Assembly (NCBI GenBank): GCA_028532855.1
Contig: JAQQAL010000025.1
Span: 1-64,000, forward strand
Source: Candidatus Thalassospirochaeta sargassi
Lineage (GTDB): Bacteria; Spirochaetota; Spirochaetia; UBA9216
Direction of reading: 5' to 3'
Length of the DNA stretch: 64,000 nucleotides
The position numbers and the translations under genes were made by a program. Under the pieces are notes generated by a model. That model saw only the letters and a list, made by a program, of their open reading frames with translations, was not told the origin of the DNA and did no database searches. Below, piece by piece: positions 34,041-49,970 of this stretch; the first letter of the stretch is position 1; every line of letters begins with the position of its first letter.

Positions 34041-35270
34041 CTATACCGCTGCTTCAGTAGAATTCGGGACGGTTTTTACAAAACGCTCTATAACTATAGC
34101 TCTTGAATGTTTCTGGATGATATAGTCATCCGCCGGAATAAATACAGGTTTGTTGATTGAAAGATCTTTGACAAGCTGCAGGTTTGTAACAAGTTTAGAG
34201 ATGTCGGGAGTTTTTTGTGCTTCCCTTACGGCTTCCATTTTTACTTTGTTAGGCGAACCGGTATTTTCGAGGATGCCTATCAGCATCCTTGAGCCGTCAC
34301 CGGAGAAATTCTCTTTATAACTGCCGAATGTTTCCCCAACATTTTTTGGATCAATTCTTATTGTGTTCAGATGAGTGTCTGACTCAAGGTTTGATACAAG
34401 ATTGTTAAGGATGTTGGCCAGTCCATTGGTGACTGTAGTTCCTGCAAGCATCTGGCGATTCAAATCTCTTGGGAAGAGAATCTCGTCGCACATCGCATTT
34501 CGCAGATACGGCTCGTATTTTTTATCTACAAGTTCTGCGCAGACATAAAGATCCTTTGCCATAGATTTAATAGTAAGCACGGTCATAACGGTTTTGGAAT
34601 CAGCCTCGGATGATCCGGCGCTTTCAAAGGTGTCTCCAAGAATAATTGCTTTTAACGCCCTTTGGATATTCGCTCTCTTAAGGGTATCTTCTGAGAAGTA
34701 GTCACCTCTGATATATTTAACTTTTTTAAGTGCCGGAAGTTCTTTGAGTGCTTCAATTCTTTCTGAATCTATATTCGAAATTATTACAATCTTTTCGGCT
34801 GTTGTCTTATCTGACAATTCCAGAATATCACGAACGATATCGCTCATATTATTCTTCCATCCGCAGATTATAATGTGGTCTTCAAGTTTTGGGAAATCCA
34901 TTAATCCTCTCCTTGCTCTGGTGTTACTTTCAACGAAAACAGACGCGAAAGTACCTGACAGAAGGCTGACTAATGCCATACTGCCGAAAATTGCTACCAT
35001 TGTGATAGCCTGTCCCGGAACAGTAACAGGTGATTTGTCACCGTATCCGACAGTACTGAAGGTAATAACAGCCCACCAGATTCCGTCGAAAAAAGATTTA
35101 AACTGTTCGTTTTGACCAATCTCAAGTAATGTGACAAGACCTGCCATCCCACCGAACAGAAGGACGAAGAAAATCGTCAGTCTATAAAATGGCGATTCGG
35201 TAAATGTGTCCCATGCCTGCCTGAGTTTTTTTCTGATTCTTGCTCGTTTACTCATCTCTATATATAACAT
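34041..35270 (-). CDS. two-helix K+ channel with RCK/TrkA-N domain
   Basis: A 409-residue potassium channel. TM1 lies at about residues 30-50, the pore loop carries the selectivity filter TVGYGD at 73-78, and TM2 at about 85-113. A cytoplasmic RCK domain follows (HIIICGWKNN near 130), with a Rossmann core and a long C-terminal part. The GxGxxG of the RCK nucleotide site is not complete (CGWKNN), so NAD or ATP binding is uncertain. The start is ATG at 35270; another in-frame ATG at 35255 is possible and neither has a good Shine-Dalgarno. The next gene encodes a lone cNMP domain. Confidence 0.85.
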   Translation of the reverse strand: MLYIEMSKRARIRKKLRQAWDTFTESPFYRLTIFFVLLFGGMAGLVTLLEIGQNEQFKSFFDGIWWAVITFSTVGYGDKSPVTVPGQAITMVAIFGSMALVSLLSGTFASVFVESNTRARRGLMDFPKLEDHIIICGWKNNMSDIVRDILELSDKTTAEKIVIISNIDSERIEALKELPALKKVKYIRGDYFSEDTLKRANIQRALKAIILGDTFESAGSSEADSKTVMTVLTIKSMAKDLYVCAELVDKKYEPYLRNAMCDEILFPRDLNRQMLAGTTVTNGLANILNNLVSNLESDTHLNTIRIDPKNVGETFGSYKENFSGDGSRMLIGILENTGSPNKVKMEAVREAQKTPDISKLVTNLQLVKDLSINKPVFIPADDYIIQKHSRAIVIERFVKTVPNSTEAAV

Positions 35271-35313: not shown

Positions 35314-35342
35314 GTGACATATGAAAAAAATGATTGTAAAAT
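35314..35342 (+). promoter_or_regulatory. codB promoter
   Basis: GTGACA (35314-35319), a 17-base spacer and TAAAAT (35337-35342). The -10 box and expected start (about 35349) lie inside the palindrome at 35330-35367. Confidence 0.65.
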
Positions 35343-35367
35343 GTAACCGGTTACATTTTACAATCAT
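35330..35367. promoter_or_regulatory. 38-bp perfect palindrome with LacI-type operator core
   Basis: Two 19-base arms (35330-35348 and 35349-35367) are exact reverse complements with no spacer. The centre, TGTAACCGGTTACA (35342-35355), has the form of a LacI-family operator with a central CG. It covers the -10 box and transcription start, the expected place for repression. A 12/14 match to the core lies in the LacI gene promoter at 40187-40200. Confidence 0.8.
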
Positions 35368-35387
35368 AATTGTTACAAGGAGATGTT

Positions 35388-36683
35388 ATGTCAGAGATTA
35401 AAGAAGAAAAGGTAGTCGATCAGGACTATCCTCTTGGTCATGTTCCTATGCATGCAAGGAAAGGACTTCTGAGTATTGCAGCAGTTTTACTTGGATTTAC
35501 ATTTTTCAGTCCGACTATGCTCGCCGGTGCGCAGTTGGGTGCGGCTTTCAGTTTAAAGCCGCTGATGATTATTCTAATAGGCGGTTCAGTAATTCTGGGT
35601 GTTTATGTTGCTGTAATGTGTCTGCTCGGGGCAAAAACAGGATTAACTTCAGTTCTGCTTTCAAAATATACGCTTGGGAAGGGTGGTGCAAAATGGGCAG
35701 ATATCATTCTCGGCGGCACTCAGATAGGATGGTATGCTGTTACATCAGCTTATATGGGAGAATTATTTGCGAAAGGTCTTGGCATGACCGGGTGGAGTGT
35801 CACCTTTACAATTTTCTGGGCTGTTGTAATGGGCATAACCGCTGTTTACGGTTTTAAAGGAATGGAAATTGTTTCCTATTTTGCATTGCCTGCAATACTG
35901 ATCCTTGTCATATACATTCCGTATCTCGGAGTAAAAGAGGTCGGGGGATGGGGTGCCATGGCGGCTCTGCAGCCGGCTTCAACAATGTCGATAGGCGCAG
36001 CTATTACGGTAGTTGTCGGTACGTTTGCCTCCGGAGGAACTCAGGCTGCTAACTGGTCGCGGTTTGCTAAAAACGGAATGACCGGATTTTGGGCCGGACT
36101 TATTGCATTCCTGCTTGGAAACGGATTGATGATTTTTTCAGGTATGATTGGTGCTCTTGCATTCAATAACGGTGATCTTGTTGAAGTTATGATTGCAATG
36201 AATATTACAGTTCTTGCACTTATTATCCTGACCATGAATATCTGGACAACAAATAACGCTACTGCATACGCCTTCGGTGTTGCCGGTGCCGAGCTTTTCA
36301 ACAAACCGAACAAGCGTCCGTTTATTATAGGCGGTGTGCTGATTGCTATTGTACTGGCGGTTACGGGTATTTATAAAAACTTTATTCCGATGCTTGTTCT
36401 TTTCGGTACTTTTATTCCCCCGTTGGGCGGTGTAATAATCGGTGATTTCTTTTTTACTTATAAAGGTAAACTCCCTGATATAGAAACCGTCGAATTCAAG
36501 AATTTCAGGATAGCGCCGGTTATTGCGTATGTTATAGGTTCGTTAGCTGCTTACTTAGGCGGACGCCTGGGAATCGGTATTCCCCCGCTGCAGGGAATTA
36601 TAATTGCAGCGCTGATGGTTCCGGTAATTAACGCAATTATAAAAGCAGCCGGTGTTAATGACATGCATGCAATAAAGGAGTAA
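35388..36683 (+). CDS. codB: cytosine permease (NCS1 family)
   Basis: A 431-residue NCS1-family transporter with about twelve hydrophobic helices. The N-terminal YPLGHVPMHARKG and the helix 1 and helix 6 segments (PTMLAGAQLGAAF, GTFASGGTQAANWSRF) resemble CodB. Cytosine as substrate is supported by the cytosine deaminase gene three bases downstream. The ATG at 35388 is chosen because AAGGAG is at 35377-35382; an in-frame TTG at 35370 lies before it. Expression should be repressed by the LacI-family protein at 39144 through the palindrome over the promoter. Confidence 0.9.
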   Translation: MSEIKEEKVVDQDYPLGHVPMHARKGLLSIAAVLLGFTFFSPTMLAGAQLGAAFSLKPLMIILIGGSVILGVYVAVMCLLGAKTGLTSVLLSKYTLGKGGAKWADIILGGTQIGWYAVTSAYMGELFAKGLGMTGWSVTFTIFWAVVMGITAVYGFKGMEIVSYFALPAILILVIYIPYLGVKEVGGWGAMAALQPASTMSIGAAITVVVGTFASGGTQAANWSRFAKNGMTGFWAGLIAFLLGNGLMIFSGMIGALAFNNGDLVEVMIAMNITVLALIILTMNIWTTNNATAYAFGVAGAELFNKPNKRPFIIGGVLIAIVLAVTGIYKNFIPMLVLFGTFIPPLGGVIIGDFFFTYKGKLPDIETVEFKNFRIAPVIAYVIGSLAAYLGGRLGIGIPPLQGIIIAALMVPVINAIIKAAGVNDMHAIKE

Positions 36684-36686
36684 CGG

Positions 36687-37964
36687 ATGGATCTGCTAAT
36701 AAAAAATGCAAAGCTTAAGGAAGGCGGAGCATATGTCGATATTGCTGTTGAAAACGGAGTGTTTCAGGCTGTTGAACAGAGCATAGCCGGAAACGGATGC
36801 AAAGAAATAGATGCCGGCGGAAATCTCGTTGTTCCCCCCTTTATTGATCCTCATGTGCATCTTGATGCTGTTCTTAGTGTAGGAGATCCGCAATTCAATA
36901 ATACCGGAACTCTTCTTGAAGGAATCAGAATTTGGGGTGAACGGAAGAAAACCCTGACAAAGGAAGTAATTGTTGATAACGCTGTTGAAGCGGTGAAGTG
37001 GGAAGTGGCAAACGGAGTTCAGCAGATAAGAACCCATGCTGATACAACCGATCCGACCTTGACGACGGTTGAGGCGCTACTTGAGGTAAAGGAGGCTGTA
37101 AAAGACATTGCCGATGTTCAGATTGTGGCATTCCCGCAGGATGGAATCTTCACATCTAAAGACGGCGCTCCGCTTATGGAGAAGGCCATGCAGATGGGGG
37201 TAGATGTTGTGGGGGGAATACCCCATAACGAGTTTACCCGTGAAGATGGTGTCGCTGATGTTGAGTTTGCTTTTGAGCTTGCGGAAAAATACGATGCTTT
37301 AATAGATATTCATGTTGATGAAACCGGAGATGATCAGTCACGCTTTGTAGAAGTTATGGCTAAGCTTGCGATAGAAACCGGTATGGGTAGTCGAGTTACT
37401 GCAAGCCATGCAACATCAATGCATAATTTTAATAACGACTATGCTTTTAAGCTGATTGGAATCCTCAAACGTTCGAATATGAATGTTATAACTAATCCCT
37501 TTGATAATTCCGTACTTCAGAATCGTACCGACGGATATCCGAGAAGAAGGGGACATACACGTGTAGACGAGCTTGATGCACGCGGCGTTAACGTAAGCAT
37601 CGGTCACGATTCAATCATGGACCCTTGGTATCCGATGGGAAAAGGAAGCATGCTGCAGGCAGCAAACCTGCTGATGCATACGGCTCATATGAGCGGTTAT
37701 GATCAGATCCACAGGCTTTTTGAGATGATAACTGATAATACAGCCGTGACAATGAATACCGCAGATAAATACGGAATTGAAAAAGGCAAACCGGCTAATT
37801 TTTCTATTCTTGACACTGATACTGTTTTTGATGCGTTAAGGCTGAACTCTGAATGTTTATATGTGGTCAGAGAAGGGCGGATAATTTCAGAAGCTGTACC
37901 TGCAAAGAGAAAAGTTATACATGACGGGTATGAACATGATATTGATTTTAAATTAAAGAAATAA
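36687..37964 (+). CDS. codA: cytosine deaminase
   Basis: A 425-residue amidohydrolase converting cytosine to uracil and ammonia. The metal site starts with His56 and His58 (PHVHLD). Other CodA-like blocks are GTLLEGIRIWGERK, IRTHADTTDPTLT, VAFPQDGI, IDIHVDETGDDQSRF, VTASHATSMH, YPRRRGHTRV and GHDSIMDPWYPMG, which together match E. coli CodA well. AAGGAG overlaps the codB stop, and the ATG follows it by three bases, so they form one operon. A terminator follows at 37975-38006. Isoguanine or 5-methylcytosine could also be substrates. Confidence 0.92.
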   Translation: MDLLIKNAKLKEGGAYVDIAVENGVFQAVEQSIAGNGCKEIDAGGNLVVPPFIDPHVHLDAVLSVGDPQFNNTGTLLEGIRIWGERKKTLTKEVIVDNAVEAVKWEVANGVQQIRTHADTTDPTLTTVEALLEVKEAVKDIADVQIVAFPQDGIFTSKDGAPLMEKAMQMGVDVVGGIPHNEFTREDGVADVEFAFELAEKYDALIDIHVDETGDDQSRFVEVMAKLAIETGMGSRVTASHATSMHNFNNDYAFKLIGILKRSNMNVITNPFDNSVLQNRTDGYPRRRGHTRVDELDARGVNVSIGHDSIMDPWYPMGKGSMLQAANLLMHTAHMSGYDQIHRLFEMITDNTAVTMNTADKYGIEKGKPANFSILDTDTVFDALRLNSECLYVVREGRIISEAVPAKRKVIHDGYEHDIDFKLKK

Positions 37965-37974
37965 TCTGAATTTT

Positions 37975-38006
37975 ATCGGTCTGCAGCGAGCAGGCCGATT
38001 TTTTTT
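37975..38006 (+). terminator. rho-independent terminator after codA
   Basis: A 10-bp stem (ATCGGTCTGC with GCAGGCCGAT, one G-U pair), a five-base loop and eight Ts to 38006. It reaches the 3' end of the convergent PreA-like gene. Confidence 0.88.
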
Positions 38007-39132
38007 AACCTTTCTGATACCAGGACATAGATATAAGTTTTTCAGGGCATACATTTATACACATCCCGCAGCCGGAGCACATATTACGGTTGAGGTTTAT
38101 TTTCCCTTCGGTGAAGGATATGGCATCATAGGTGCAGGCATTGCGGCAGTGCATGCAGTCTGATTTATGACAATCAGTTTTAAACTCTGCCGCAAGGGGA
38201 TCGCTTCTGAGATCCTGAAACGGAGAAATGCGCTTGGAAACGATTCCTTTCAGCTCCTGTATACTTCGGTAATTATGATTGTCGAGCCAGGCTGTAAGTT
38301 CCTCAAGAATTATGCCTATATTTGAGTATCCGTTTGTTAGTATAGACGAACCTATCTGAACCGATTGAGCTCCAAGCATGAAATATTCGACAGCATGACT
38401 GAAACGGCTTATGCCGCCGATGCCGCAAACCGGAATCCCGACAGCTTCCGAAATCATTGAAATAATTGCCATTGATACAGGTCTTACTGAAGATCCGGAA
38501 AGACCTCCCAATGACGGCAGGTAGGGGGTAGCGGTTTCTATATCAATACCTGCAAAGGCGCGAACCGAATCAATTCCGGAGATGCCCGACGCTCCTCCGC
38601 GCTCAGCGGCTCTGGCGCAGGCAACCGGATTTGTGACGGTAGCGGACAGTTTTACTGCCACCGGAATTTTTACAGCCGTGGTTACCGCTTCAGTATAGTT
38701 AAAAACAAACTCCGGGTCGGAGCATTTTATTTCCAGCCCCTCTCCAAAAGGTGCGGCGGCTCCTATTTCAATTGCATTTGCTCCAAAGCTTTCAACCGAT
38801 TCTGCGAGGTATGCAAGCTCTGAAGGAGACTCTCCCATTATACTCGCAATTATTGTTCCGCCGTTATTTCTTGTTTCGCCAATAGTTTTTTTCCAGTCTT
38901 CAAGAGTCAATTCGCTGTACAGTCTGATGTTTGAAAGGCTGTATTCTTTATAAAACAGGCGAGGGCAGTGTGTGGGGCTCGGTTCACTGACTATTGAGGC
39001 TGTAACTACAGCTGAAGCTCCGGATTCCAGAGCCTTGCTTATAGTTGAAGTATCCCTGCTCCATGGGCCTGCGGATACTATGAGGGGATTTTCGAGCTCT
39101 AATCCCGCATATTGTGTTTTCAGTTCAGCCAT
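38005..39132 (-). CDS. PreA/DHODH-like flavoprotein with two 4Fe-4S clusters, altered active site
   Basis: A 375-residue protein. Residues about 5-295 form a dihydroorotate/dihydropyrimidine dehydrogenase-type FMN barrel (ENPLIVSAGP, IASIMGES, AVKLSATVTN, GGISRFSHA, VQIGSSIL). Residues about 318-372 carry two ferredoxin motifs, CHKSDCMHCRNAC and CSGCGMCINVCP. In PreA and DPYD the segment N-x-S-C-P holds the catalytic Cys; here it reads GAAAP, so the Cys is Ala. The reaction may differ from uracil reduction or oxidation. GAGGTGATG precedes the ATG. It lies 11 bases after the LacI gene, in one operon facing codBA. Confidence 0.75.
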   Translation of the reverse strand: MAELKTQYAGLELENPLIVSAGPWSRDTSTISKALESGASAVVTASIVSEPSPTHCPRLFYKEYSLSNIRLYSELTLEDWKKTIGETRNNGGTIIASIMGESPSELAYLAESVESFGANAIEIGAAAPFGEGLEIKCSDPEFVFNYTEAVTTAVKIPVAVKLSATVTNPVACARAAERGGASGISGIDSVRAFAGIDIETATPYLPSLGGLSGSSVRPVSMAIISMISEAVGIPVCGIGGISRFSHAVEYFMLGAQSVQIGSSILTNGYSNIGIILEELTAWLDNHNYRSIQELKGIVSKRISPFQDLRSDPLAAEFKTDCHKSDCMHCRNACTYDAISFTEGKINLNRNMCSGCGMCINVCPEKLISMSWYQKG

Positions 39133-39143
39133 ATCATCACCTC

Positions 39144-40157
39144 TTAATATTTTGTGCGACCATGGCCGCAGGATTCTCTGATATTGAGTGCAGTTTGAAG
39201 AAATATTTCCTGGCTTTCATAGCCACGGTTGTCAATGTCGTCGAAAAGCAGTCTGGCCGATAAAAGTCCCAGCTTGTGAGCCGGAAAAGCAATAGTAGTC
39301 AGCCTGGGACTTACAAGCTCAGATATATCAACATTATCAAATCCGATTATTGCAATTTGTTCAGGTACCTTTATTTCGTTTTCATTAAGGCATTTTAGTA
39401 CTGCAAGTGCAGCAGGATCACATGAAACCAGGAGTGCTTCCGGCAGACTTTTTCCCATGAGAAGTTTTTTAGCTGCGCGGGTTCCTCCGCGGATTGATTT
39501 TTCATCTTCAATGATGAAATTTTCATTTATGCTGATAGAATGTTCATTTATCGCCTGGACAAAGCCCGAGAATTTTTCTTCATCTTCAAACGCCGTGGAT
39601 TTATTGGAAATGAATCCGAGAGATCTGTACCCCAGTGAAATGAAATGTTTTGCTGCGTTATAACTGCCCCTGGCGTAATCAATATAAACTGCATTTGTAT
39701 TTTCAATTTGTCTTTTACGTCCGGCAAGAACAATTGGAACCTTTTCCTTTTGAAGTGAATAGAGCTCATCATCTGAAAGAAGGGAGTTTACAAGAATAAT
39801 TCCGTCGACTCTGCGTCCTTTTACAAGCATATCAAGGTTCTCAAGTTCTCTTTCATGATTGTTTTCTGAATTACAAAGGAATACAAAGTATCCTTTCTGA
39901 TGGGCGATCTCCTCTATACCCCGTGCAATTTTTATATAACTCATATCGAGCACATCGGGAAGTATCAGTGCAATAGAGTTCGATTTATCCAGTGCAAGAC
40001 CTCTTGCGTGTGTATTAGGAGTATATTCCATGTCTCTCATAATTTTAAATACTTTTTCGCGAGTATCCGGGGAGACTGAGTTTGGGTGATTTATTACCCT
40101 GGAGATTGTTGCTACAGAGTATCCTGATGCTTTTGCGACTTCTCTAATATTAGGCAT
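39144..40157 (-). CDS. LacI-family transcriptional repressor, probably of cytosine genes
   Basis: A 337-residue regulator. The N-terminal HTH reads MPNIREVAKASGYSVATISR, with a hinge helix near residue 50 (NTHARGLALDKS) and a periplasmic-binding-protein-like sensor domain to the end (IALILPD, IIGFDN, TIAFPAHKLG). The ATG at 40157 fits family starts; longer frames run back through the promoter. It precedes the PreA-like gene by 11 bases. An operator-like site in its own promoter and the palindrome before codB point to autoregulation and control of codBA. The effector is probably a pyrimidine or derivative, which is inferred. Confidence 0.9.
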   Translation of the reverse strand: MPNIREVAKASGYSVATISRVINHPNSVSPDTREKVFKIMRDMEYTPNTHARGLALDKSNSIALILPDVLDMSYIKIARGIEEIAHQKGYFVFLCNSENNHERELENLDMLVKGRRVDGIILVNSLLSDDELYSLQKEKVPIVLAGRKRQIENTNAVYIDYARGSYNAAKHFISLGYRSLGFISNKSTAFEDEEKFSGFVQAINEHSISINENFIIEDEKSIRGGTRAAKKLLMGKSLPEALLVSCDPAALAVLKCLNENEIKVPEQIAIIGFDNVDISELVSPRLTTIAFPAHKLGLLSARLLFDDIDNRGYESQEIFLQTALNIRESCGHGRTKY

Positions 40158-40173
40158 AATTATTCCGGTAGCA

Positions 40174-40203
40174 ATTGTAACATCAAGGTAACTGGTTACA
40201 CAA
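40174..40203 (-). promoter_or_regulatory. promoter of the LacI gene with operator in its spacer
   Basis: Minus strand TTGTGT (40198-40203), an 18-base spacer and TACAAT (40174-40179). The plus strand reads GGTAACTGGTTACA at 40187-40200, matching the codB palindrome core in 12 of 14 bases and overlapping the -35 box and spacer. Confidence 0.65.
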
Positions 40204-48788: not shown

Positions 48789-49910
48789 TTGCTGATAAGA
48801 TACGGAACAAATGGAAAGGGCCGAAGAGTCAAGATAGCTAATATATATACTATCGAAGAACACGGTATAACAACGGGCATGATCGACAGCGACGCGCTGA
48901 AGATTATAAAGCGATTGAGGCATGCCGGTTATAACGCATATGTCGTAGGCGGTGCAGTACGGGATCTGCTGCTTAATAAAACGCCGAAAGATTTTGATAT
49001 AGCTACGGATGCTCACCCGAGACAGATAAAGAAACTCTTCTACAACGCAAAAATAATTGGAAAGCGATTCAGGCTGGTACATATTCAGTTTCAAAACAAG
49101 ATAATTGAGGTTTCAACCTTCCGTGGGCTTACCCCCGGAGATGAGCAGAATACCTTCGGTACCATAGAAGATGATGTGAAAAGACGGGATTTTTCATTTA
49201 ATGCATTATATTATTCGCCTGTTGAAGAACAGCTGCTTGATTACATCGGGGGGTACGATGATGTTAAGCAGGGAAGGATTAGATCTCTCATACCGCTCGA
49301 TGTTACCTTCAAGGAAGATCCTGTCCGGTTGATTCGAACGGTCAAGTATGCCTCAACAACAGGATTTCAACTGCCCGGAAAAATTAAAAAAGCTTTGAAG
49401 AAGTATTCCTCCGAATTAGATCGTGCTGCAGTTTCAAGGCTAACGGAAGAATTGATGAAAATTCTTGCCTGCGGAAGTTCAAACCAGATTTTTAGATACT
49501 GCATGGAATACGATATGCTTAAATATATAGTTCCTGTAATTGCATCCAACGCTACTGAGGAAATGATGGACAGTCTTGTGACGCTTGATTCTGAAATATT
49601 GGAAAGACATGGTGTGAAGCGCGAATATATGCTGTATGCCCTGACAAGGACATATTTGAATAAGCCGACAGAATCTATGATAAAGACAAAAACAGCATTC
49701 AGAGAGGTTTTTAAAGAGATGAAGGCTATAATAGCACCGCTTACTCCGCCGAACATCGAAGTAGAGAAGGCTGTAGTTCTTTATTTTAAAGAGCTGGGCA
49801 TATCAGTTAGAATTCCGAATCAACATAGTAATGCAAAATACAGAAGGGGCGGTAAACGCAGACGTCCGCAGCATCGCAAGGGCAGACCTGCGGAATCAAC
49901 CACTAAATAA
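48789..49910 (+). CDS. PcnB/CCA-adding family nucleotidyltransferase with basic tail
   Basis: A 373-residue class II nucleotidyltransferase. The head has VVGGAVRDLLL and the metal pair in DFDIAT; RRDFSFNALYY and DPVRLIRTVKYAS follow. The pattern is closest to PcnB-type poly(A) polymerases, but CCA-adding activity is equally possible in this family. The last 25 residues are highly basic (RRGGKRRRPQHRKGR) and should bind RNA. The start is taken as TTG at 48789 with AGGA upstream; no ATG gives a full-length head. A strong terminator follows. Confidence 0.85.
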   Translation: MLIRYGTNGKGRRVKIANIYTIEEHGITTGMIDSDALKIIKRLRHAGYNAYVVGGAVRDLLLNKTPKDFDIATDAHPRQIKKLFYNAKIIGKRFRLVHIQFQNKIIEVSTFRGLTPGDEQNTFGTIEDDVKRRDFSFNALYYSPVEEQLLDYIGGYDDVKQGRIRSLIPLDVTFKEDPVRLIRTVKYASTTGFQLPGKIKKALKKYSSELDRAAVSRLTEELMKILACGSSNQIFRYCMEYDMLKYIVPVIASNATEEMMDSLVTLDSEILERHGVKREYMLYALTRTYLNKPTESMIKTKTAFREVFKEMKAIIAPLTPPNIEVEKAVVLYFKELGISVRIPNQHSNAKYRRGGKRRRPQHRKGRPAESTTK

Positions 49911-49912
49911 AT

Positions 49913-49948
49913 AAAAACGGCTGTTCGCAATGCGAAACAGCCGTTTTT
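49913..49948. terminator. bidirectional terminator
   Basis: AAAAACGGCTGTTCGC (49913-49928), a three-base loop and GCGAAACAGCCGTTTTT (49932-49948), with one bulged base. It can stop both the nucleotidyltransferase transcript and the convergent exported-protein transcript. Confidence 0.9.
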
Positions 49949-49970
49949 ATTTATCGGGCGGAATCCTGAA

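Follow-up and report, generated by a model that had tools for sequence, protein, structure and literature searches.

A 38-bp perfect palindrome at a spirochaete codB promoter: a probable LacI-family operator with a lineage-specific extension

Introduction

A perfect palindrome of 38 bp lies over the predicted promoter of the cytosine permease gene codB in Candidatus Thalassospirochaeta sargassi (GCA_028532855.1), raising the question of whether the whole repeat is a regulatory site or whether a shorter operator has been extended, and by what process. In the LacI family, known operator motifs have even palindromic symmetry over 16-22 nt and CG at the centre, and most lie 30-140 bp ahead of the start codon (Ravcheev et al. 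2014, PMC4052901). The locus was analysed within the window (the whole stretch of DNA under study, 64,000 nucleotides of contig JAQQAL010000025.1), against other parts of the same genome and against related loci.

Results

The palindrome and its gene neighbourhood

The features of the locus are as follows.

34041-35270, minus strand: K+ channel gene, the upstream neighbour, divergent from codB
35314-35342, plus strand: predicted codB promoter GTGACA-17-TAAAAT, 10/12 matches
35330-35367: perfect palindrome ATGATTGTAAAATGTAACC/GGTTACATTTTACAATCAT, 38 bp, arms 35330-35348 and 35349-35367
35330-35340: left outer arm, holding most of the -10 box TAAAAT (35337-35342)
35341-35356: probable core operator ATGTAACCGGTTACAT, 16 bp, LacI-family type with CG at its centre, with conserved counterparts before codB/permease genes in the clusters of LacI orthologues
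35357-35367: right outer arm, the mirror copy in the codB 5' leader
35372-35377: lone additional half-site GTTACA, downstream of the palindrome and ahead of the SD, weak
35377-35382, plus strand: codB ribosome-binding site AAGGAG, from the sequence
35388-36683, plus strand: codB, cytosine permease (NCS1; Transp_cyt_pur; NF008241 at 384.6 bits, cut-off 326)
36687-37964, plus strand: codA-like cytosine deaminase gene (NF006685 at 501.8 bits, cut-off 483)
38005-39132, minus strand: PreA / dihydroorotate-dehydrogenase-like protein with a 4Fe-4S (ferredoxin) domain (DHO_dh; PreA model below cut-off)
39144-40157, minus strand: LacI-family regulator gene, the probable operator owner
40187-40200, minus strand: candidate second operator TGTAACCAGTTACC, 30 bp before lacI, found allowing 2 mismatches, one end degenerate

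We confirmed on the sequence that the two arms, 19 nt each, are 100% complementary with a spacer of 0 nt, as the first-pass annotation had described, and that this is not a chance arrangement. The chance expectation per 64 kb is about 3e-7 with the composition of the window and 6e-6 with AT-rich intergenic composition. The runner-up spacerless palindrome within the window has 10-bp arms. The background analysis covered 464 kb of the same genome (the window and 20 stretches of 20 kb); no second spacerless palindrome with arms longer than 12 bp was found there, the runner-up having 12-bp arms. The expected number and this background rule out a chance origin. A dispersed repeat or mobile element is ruled out as well, by a search of the genome that found no further copy of the 19-mer arm with 0 or 1 mismatch. 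The two other genome matches differ at 2 and 3 positions, a level similar to that of a reversed-pattern control, and in the 2-mismatch match the core half-site is broken. Elsewhere in the window, an inverted repeat with 19-bp arms and a 10-nt loop (49907-49954), with an A-run before and a T-run after its G+C-rich part, looks like a bidirectional terminator.

The codB and codA-like genes are faced by the PreA-like gene and lacI on the opposite strand. The promoter GTGACA-17-TAAAAT is the best sigma-70-like site of the region, in which shuffling yields a mean of 1.1 promoter-like sites, and we regard it as plausible. If it is correct, transcription would start at about 35349, which is the palindrome centre. 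For lacI, the longest ORF begins at a GTG (40241), and the second operator would then fall inside the gene; the ATG at 40157 agrees with the starts of the orthologues and is the likely start.

The core is centred 39 bp before codB, and TGTAACCGGTTACA has exactly one exact occurrence in the genome. The centre had been proposed to fit a LacI-family site covering the -10 box and the expected start of the codB promoter. Both parts were borne out: the core is an even 16-nt palindrome with central CG that is conserved in relatives, and it overlaps the predicted start and the last bases of the -10 box, the promoter itself being only plausible. A site is also present before the regulator's own gene, and TGTAACCAGTTACC probably serves autoregulation. 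At the GTTACA half-site, the centre of a dyad would lie 22 bp downstream of the palindrome's own, with about 8/14 matches. No convincing further regulon members were found in the genome, the examined 2-mismatch near-matches lying almost all inside ORFs.

The core in related genomes

An alignment of six LacI proteins of this kind was used to scan the named genomes, yielding 80 loci. The LacI gene stands beside a PreA-like gene in about 60 loci, in Clostridia and Spirochaetota, and the orthologous LacI proteins share mostly 35-47% identity. Examination of 63 named loci, including 17 codB genes with enough upstream sequence, detected the pattern TGTAA[CT]NN[AG]TTACA upstream of codB in 10/17 cases and upstream of lacI in 4/61. 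Across all 80 upstream regions together, 0.005 sites are expected after shuffling; 22 sites were observed, versus 0-1 in all 712 kb. The core is thus conserved among relatives that carry this gene set, and its absence from them, which would have counted against the first-pass annotation, was not observed. The pattern as written is absent from 7/17 codB upstream regions and from most lacI upstream regions of the relatives; either it is too strict or the regulon varies.

In the nearest family member, which belongs to another genus (G001; L029/L106), the gene order is codB-codA-lacI and two exact copies of ATGTAACCGGTTACAT precede codB, their centres 42 bp apart. In G299 and G341, lacI is divergent from codB, with ATGTAACTAGTTACAT between them. 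G080 carries ATGTAACTGGTTACAT upstream of a uracil-permease-like gene, with lacI-preA on a separate contig; each of the two contigs breaks off within a preA-like gene, suggesting that they may adjoin. Two operator dyads precede codB in L100, L101, L106, L110, L111, L125 and L157, with centres 40-42 or 67-74 bp apart, suggesting paired dimers or looping. The T. sargassi codB promoter has a single full dyad and at most the isolated extra half-site, whereas in many relatives a second dyad lies at a distance of 40-74 bp.

Gene content varies around the conserved pair. In L099-L161 (Clostridia, Spirochaetota) the LacI-family and PreA-like genes stand together, often with codB-codA, and some of these loci add a second PreA, a glutamate-synthase-like (PreT-like) gene and a hydantoinase/carbamoylase gene. 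In a cultured Clostridium (L113, at 9271) the same operator precedes PreT-like, PreA and hydantoinase/carbamoylase-type genes. L089 (10-3374 and 5456-7160) has what we take to be DUF1116-type, DUF2877-type, thiolase-like and cyclase-like genes beside a uracil-permease-like gene and preA, a possible nucleobase-breakdown cluster.

The scan of the phylum also returned core matches outside the codB/PreA LacI regulon, which were set aside. One of them, in another phylum member (L030, 1501-1516), is an identical ATGTAACCGGTTACAT flanked by a PTS gene and by a lacI-type gene of another kind; its owner would be an unrelated LacI-family regulator with the same site. The flanks of L031-L043 resemble those of L030. 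The 16-mer alone is therefore not diagnostic of the codB/PreA LacI regulator.

The outer arms

Over 24 related sites, arm pairing was 67-100% at positions 1-8 from the centre and 24%, the chance level, at positions 9-19. Conserved outer-arm pairing was looked for in these 24 orthologous operators and was not found, 24% being the level of unrelated sequence; the longest perfect arm among them measured 11. The first-pass annotation had taken the perfection of the palindrome as a sign of selection on both arms, for which the outer pairing in the relatives gives no support. It appears unlikely that one element combines a LacI operator in the core with a minus-strand terminator or a cooperative extended operator in the outer arms, both arms being selected.

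The two components of such an element were weighed separately. Selection of the whole 38 bp for LacI binding, with outer arms that strengthen or extend it (for example, through overlapping dimers) in place of the second operator of the relatives, would suit the single dyad of this promoter, since several related codB promoters have two, with centres 40-74 bp apart. The half-site TGTAA is repeated 7 bp further out in the outer arms, and LacI-family sites that overlap one another have been described, with 13 bp as the favoured spacing (PMC4052901). A 7-bp offset is, however, outside the known spacings, and the best overlapping dyads (offsets -7 and +7) match at just 9/14. Together with the chance-level outer pairing of the relatives, this leaves the earlier suggestion that the outer arms recruit further dimers without support, and we consider selection of the whole repeat as an extended operator quite improbable. 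Alternatively, the palindrome might also end minus-strand transcription as an intrinsic terminator, so that antisense codA-codB transcripts (for example, lacI-preA read-through) stop before the K+ channel gene. The minus strand reads a 17-bp stem and a 4-nt loop followed directly by TTTTTT, an arrangement of which shuffles yield 0.1 sites, and the RNA fold has -17.5 kcal/mol (z -7.8). Yet only 3/17 stem pairs are G-C, unlike the G+C-rich stems of strong terminators, the T-run arises from reading the A-rich promoter spacer on the opposite strand, the related codB promoters have no long stem, and the source transcript is itself hypothetical. We keep a weak terminator as a residual alternative, a side possibility that is rather unlikely.

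RNA structure on the plus strand was considered too. Transcribed in full, the palindrome gives an RNA with a fold of -21.7 kcal/mol, whose stem ends 9 nt before the SD, as would fit a codB-leader hairpin controlling translation. The mRNA from the predicted start, however, has one (right) arm and folds at -4.1 kcal/mol, no better than shuffles; the codB mRNA would lack the hairpin because this start is at the palindrome centre. The hairpin proposed earlier, formed before the codB SD by transcription from upstream, is unlikely for the same reason and because transcription of the adjacent upstream gene runs in the opposite direction. Control of codB translation by such a hairpin is accordingly a very remote explanation. 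More remote still is a dyad-symmetric divergent promoter in which the mirrored TAAAAT drives the K+ channel gene: the palindrome does place TAAAAT on both strands, but the hexamers 16-18 bp from the mirrored -10 box match TTGACA at no more than 2/6 (by eye), and the promoter scan yields only a weak 9/12 minus-strand site, located elsewhere.

As to how the outer arms arose, we moderately favour copying with a template switch around the operator. We rank it as the likeliest origin, with selection for some outer-arm function next. Template switching at inverted repeats in bacteria leads to more perfect repeats (PMC7202029), and one such event can create a perfect hairpin stem (PMC8794818). The features expected of such an event were found: a perfect repeat on a shorter palindrome, with relatives that have the palindrome without the extension. 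Replication would have switched template at the core palindrome, a ready seed, and the promoter-bearing left arm would have been copied into the 5' leader, giving the outer 11+11 bp, which would then be neutral or nearly so. Compared with the G001 promoter, the left arm matches at 7/11 (p = 0.08, shuffling) and the right arm at 2/11, a hint only; G001 is the closest relative with the gene. Only one such palindrome is present in the 464 kb sampled, so template switching has left no general trace there.

Discussion

Taken together, the data suggest that the palindrome is probably an ordinary operator with an unusual, probably mutational, lineage-specific extension. We are fairly confident of the operator part, in which the core would be bound by the adjacent LacI-family regulator, as the sequence comparisons point to, and the owner is probably the neighbouring LacI-family protein (39144-40157). 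The likeness to the LacI-family operators described previously (PMC4052901) includes the even palindrome, the central CG, the TGTAA half-sites, the adjoining LacI-family gene, the 30-140 bp spacing and the autoregulatory site. The difference is in length: symmetry extends over 16-22 nt in those operators and over 38 bp here, the extra part being missing from the orthologous sites. The quasipalindrome products of template switching (PMC7202029, PMC8794818) are similar in having a perfect inverted repeat around a shorter, older palindrome, unconserved in relatives; in the present case we infer the event from the extant sequence only.

The proposed mechanism is likely promoter occlusion at codB. 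A LacI dimer on 35341-35356 would mask the predicted start at about 35349 together with the final bases of the -10 box, and when bound it would keep RNA polymerase off codB-codA. From 40187-40200, LacI would repress its own gene. The effector is probably a pyrimidine or related nucleobase, or a pyrimidine intermediate, because nucleobase permeases, cytosine deaminase and PreA-like enzymes are encoded in the clusters; the genes behind the L113 site point the same way.

E. coli PurR, a LacI-family regulator, controls purine and some pyrimidine genes through an operator that is a 16-bp palindrome. The regulator described here is similar in family, in its nucleobase genes and in its 16-bp palindromic operator, but the half-site is different, TGTAA being that of the T. 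sargassi operator. Its protein scores 213.7 with the NCBIfam PurR model (cut-off 501) and is thus not a PurR orthologue. A term search of the main text of PMC4052901 found no mention of cytosine, Spirochaetes or TGTAAC, and the literature searches found no description of a cytosine/PreA LacI regulon, so this nucleobase regulon is apparently undescribed so far.

Selection on an entire repeat does not necessarily follow from its being a long perfect palindrome at a promoter: here the 16-bp core could be told apart from its extension by comparing orthologous sites. The effectors assigned to the LacI family are mostly sugars. The present analysis provides a concrete operator motif and a regulon for a LacI-family regulator of nucleobase uptake and deamination in Clostridia and Spirochaetota.
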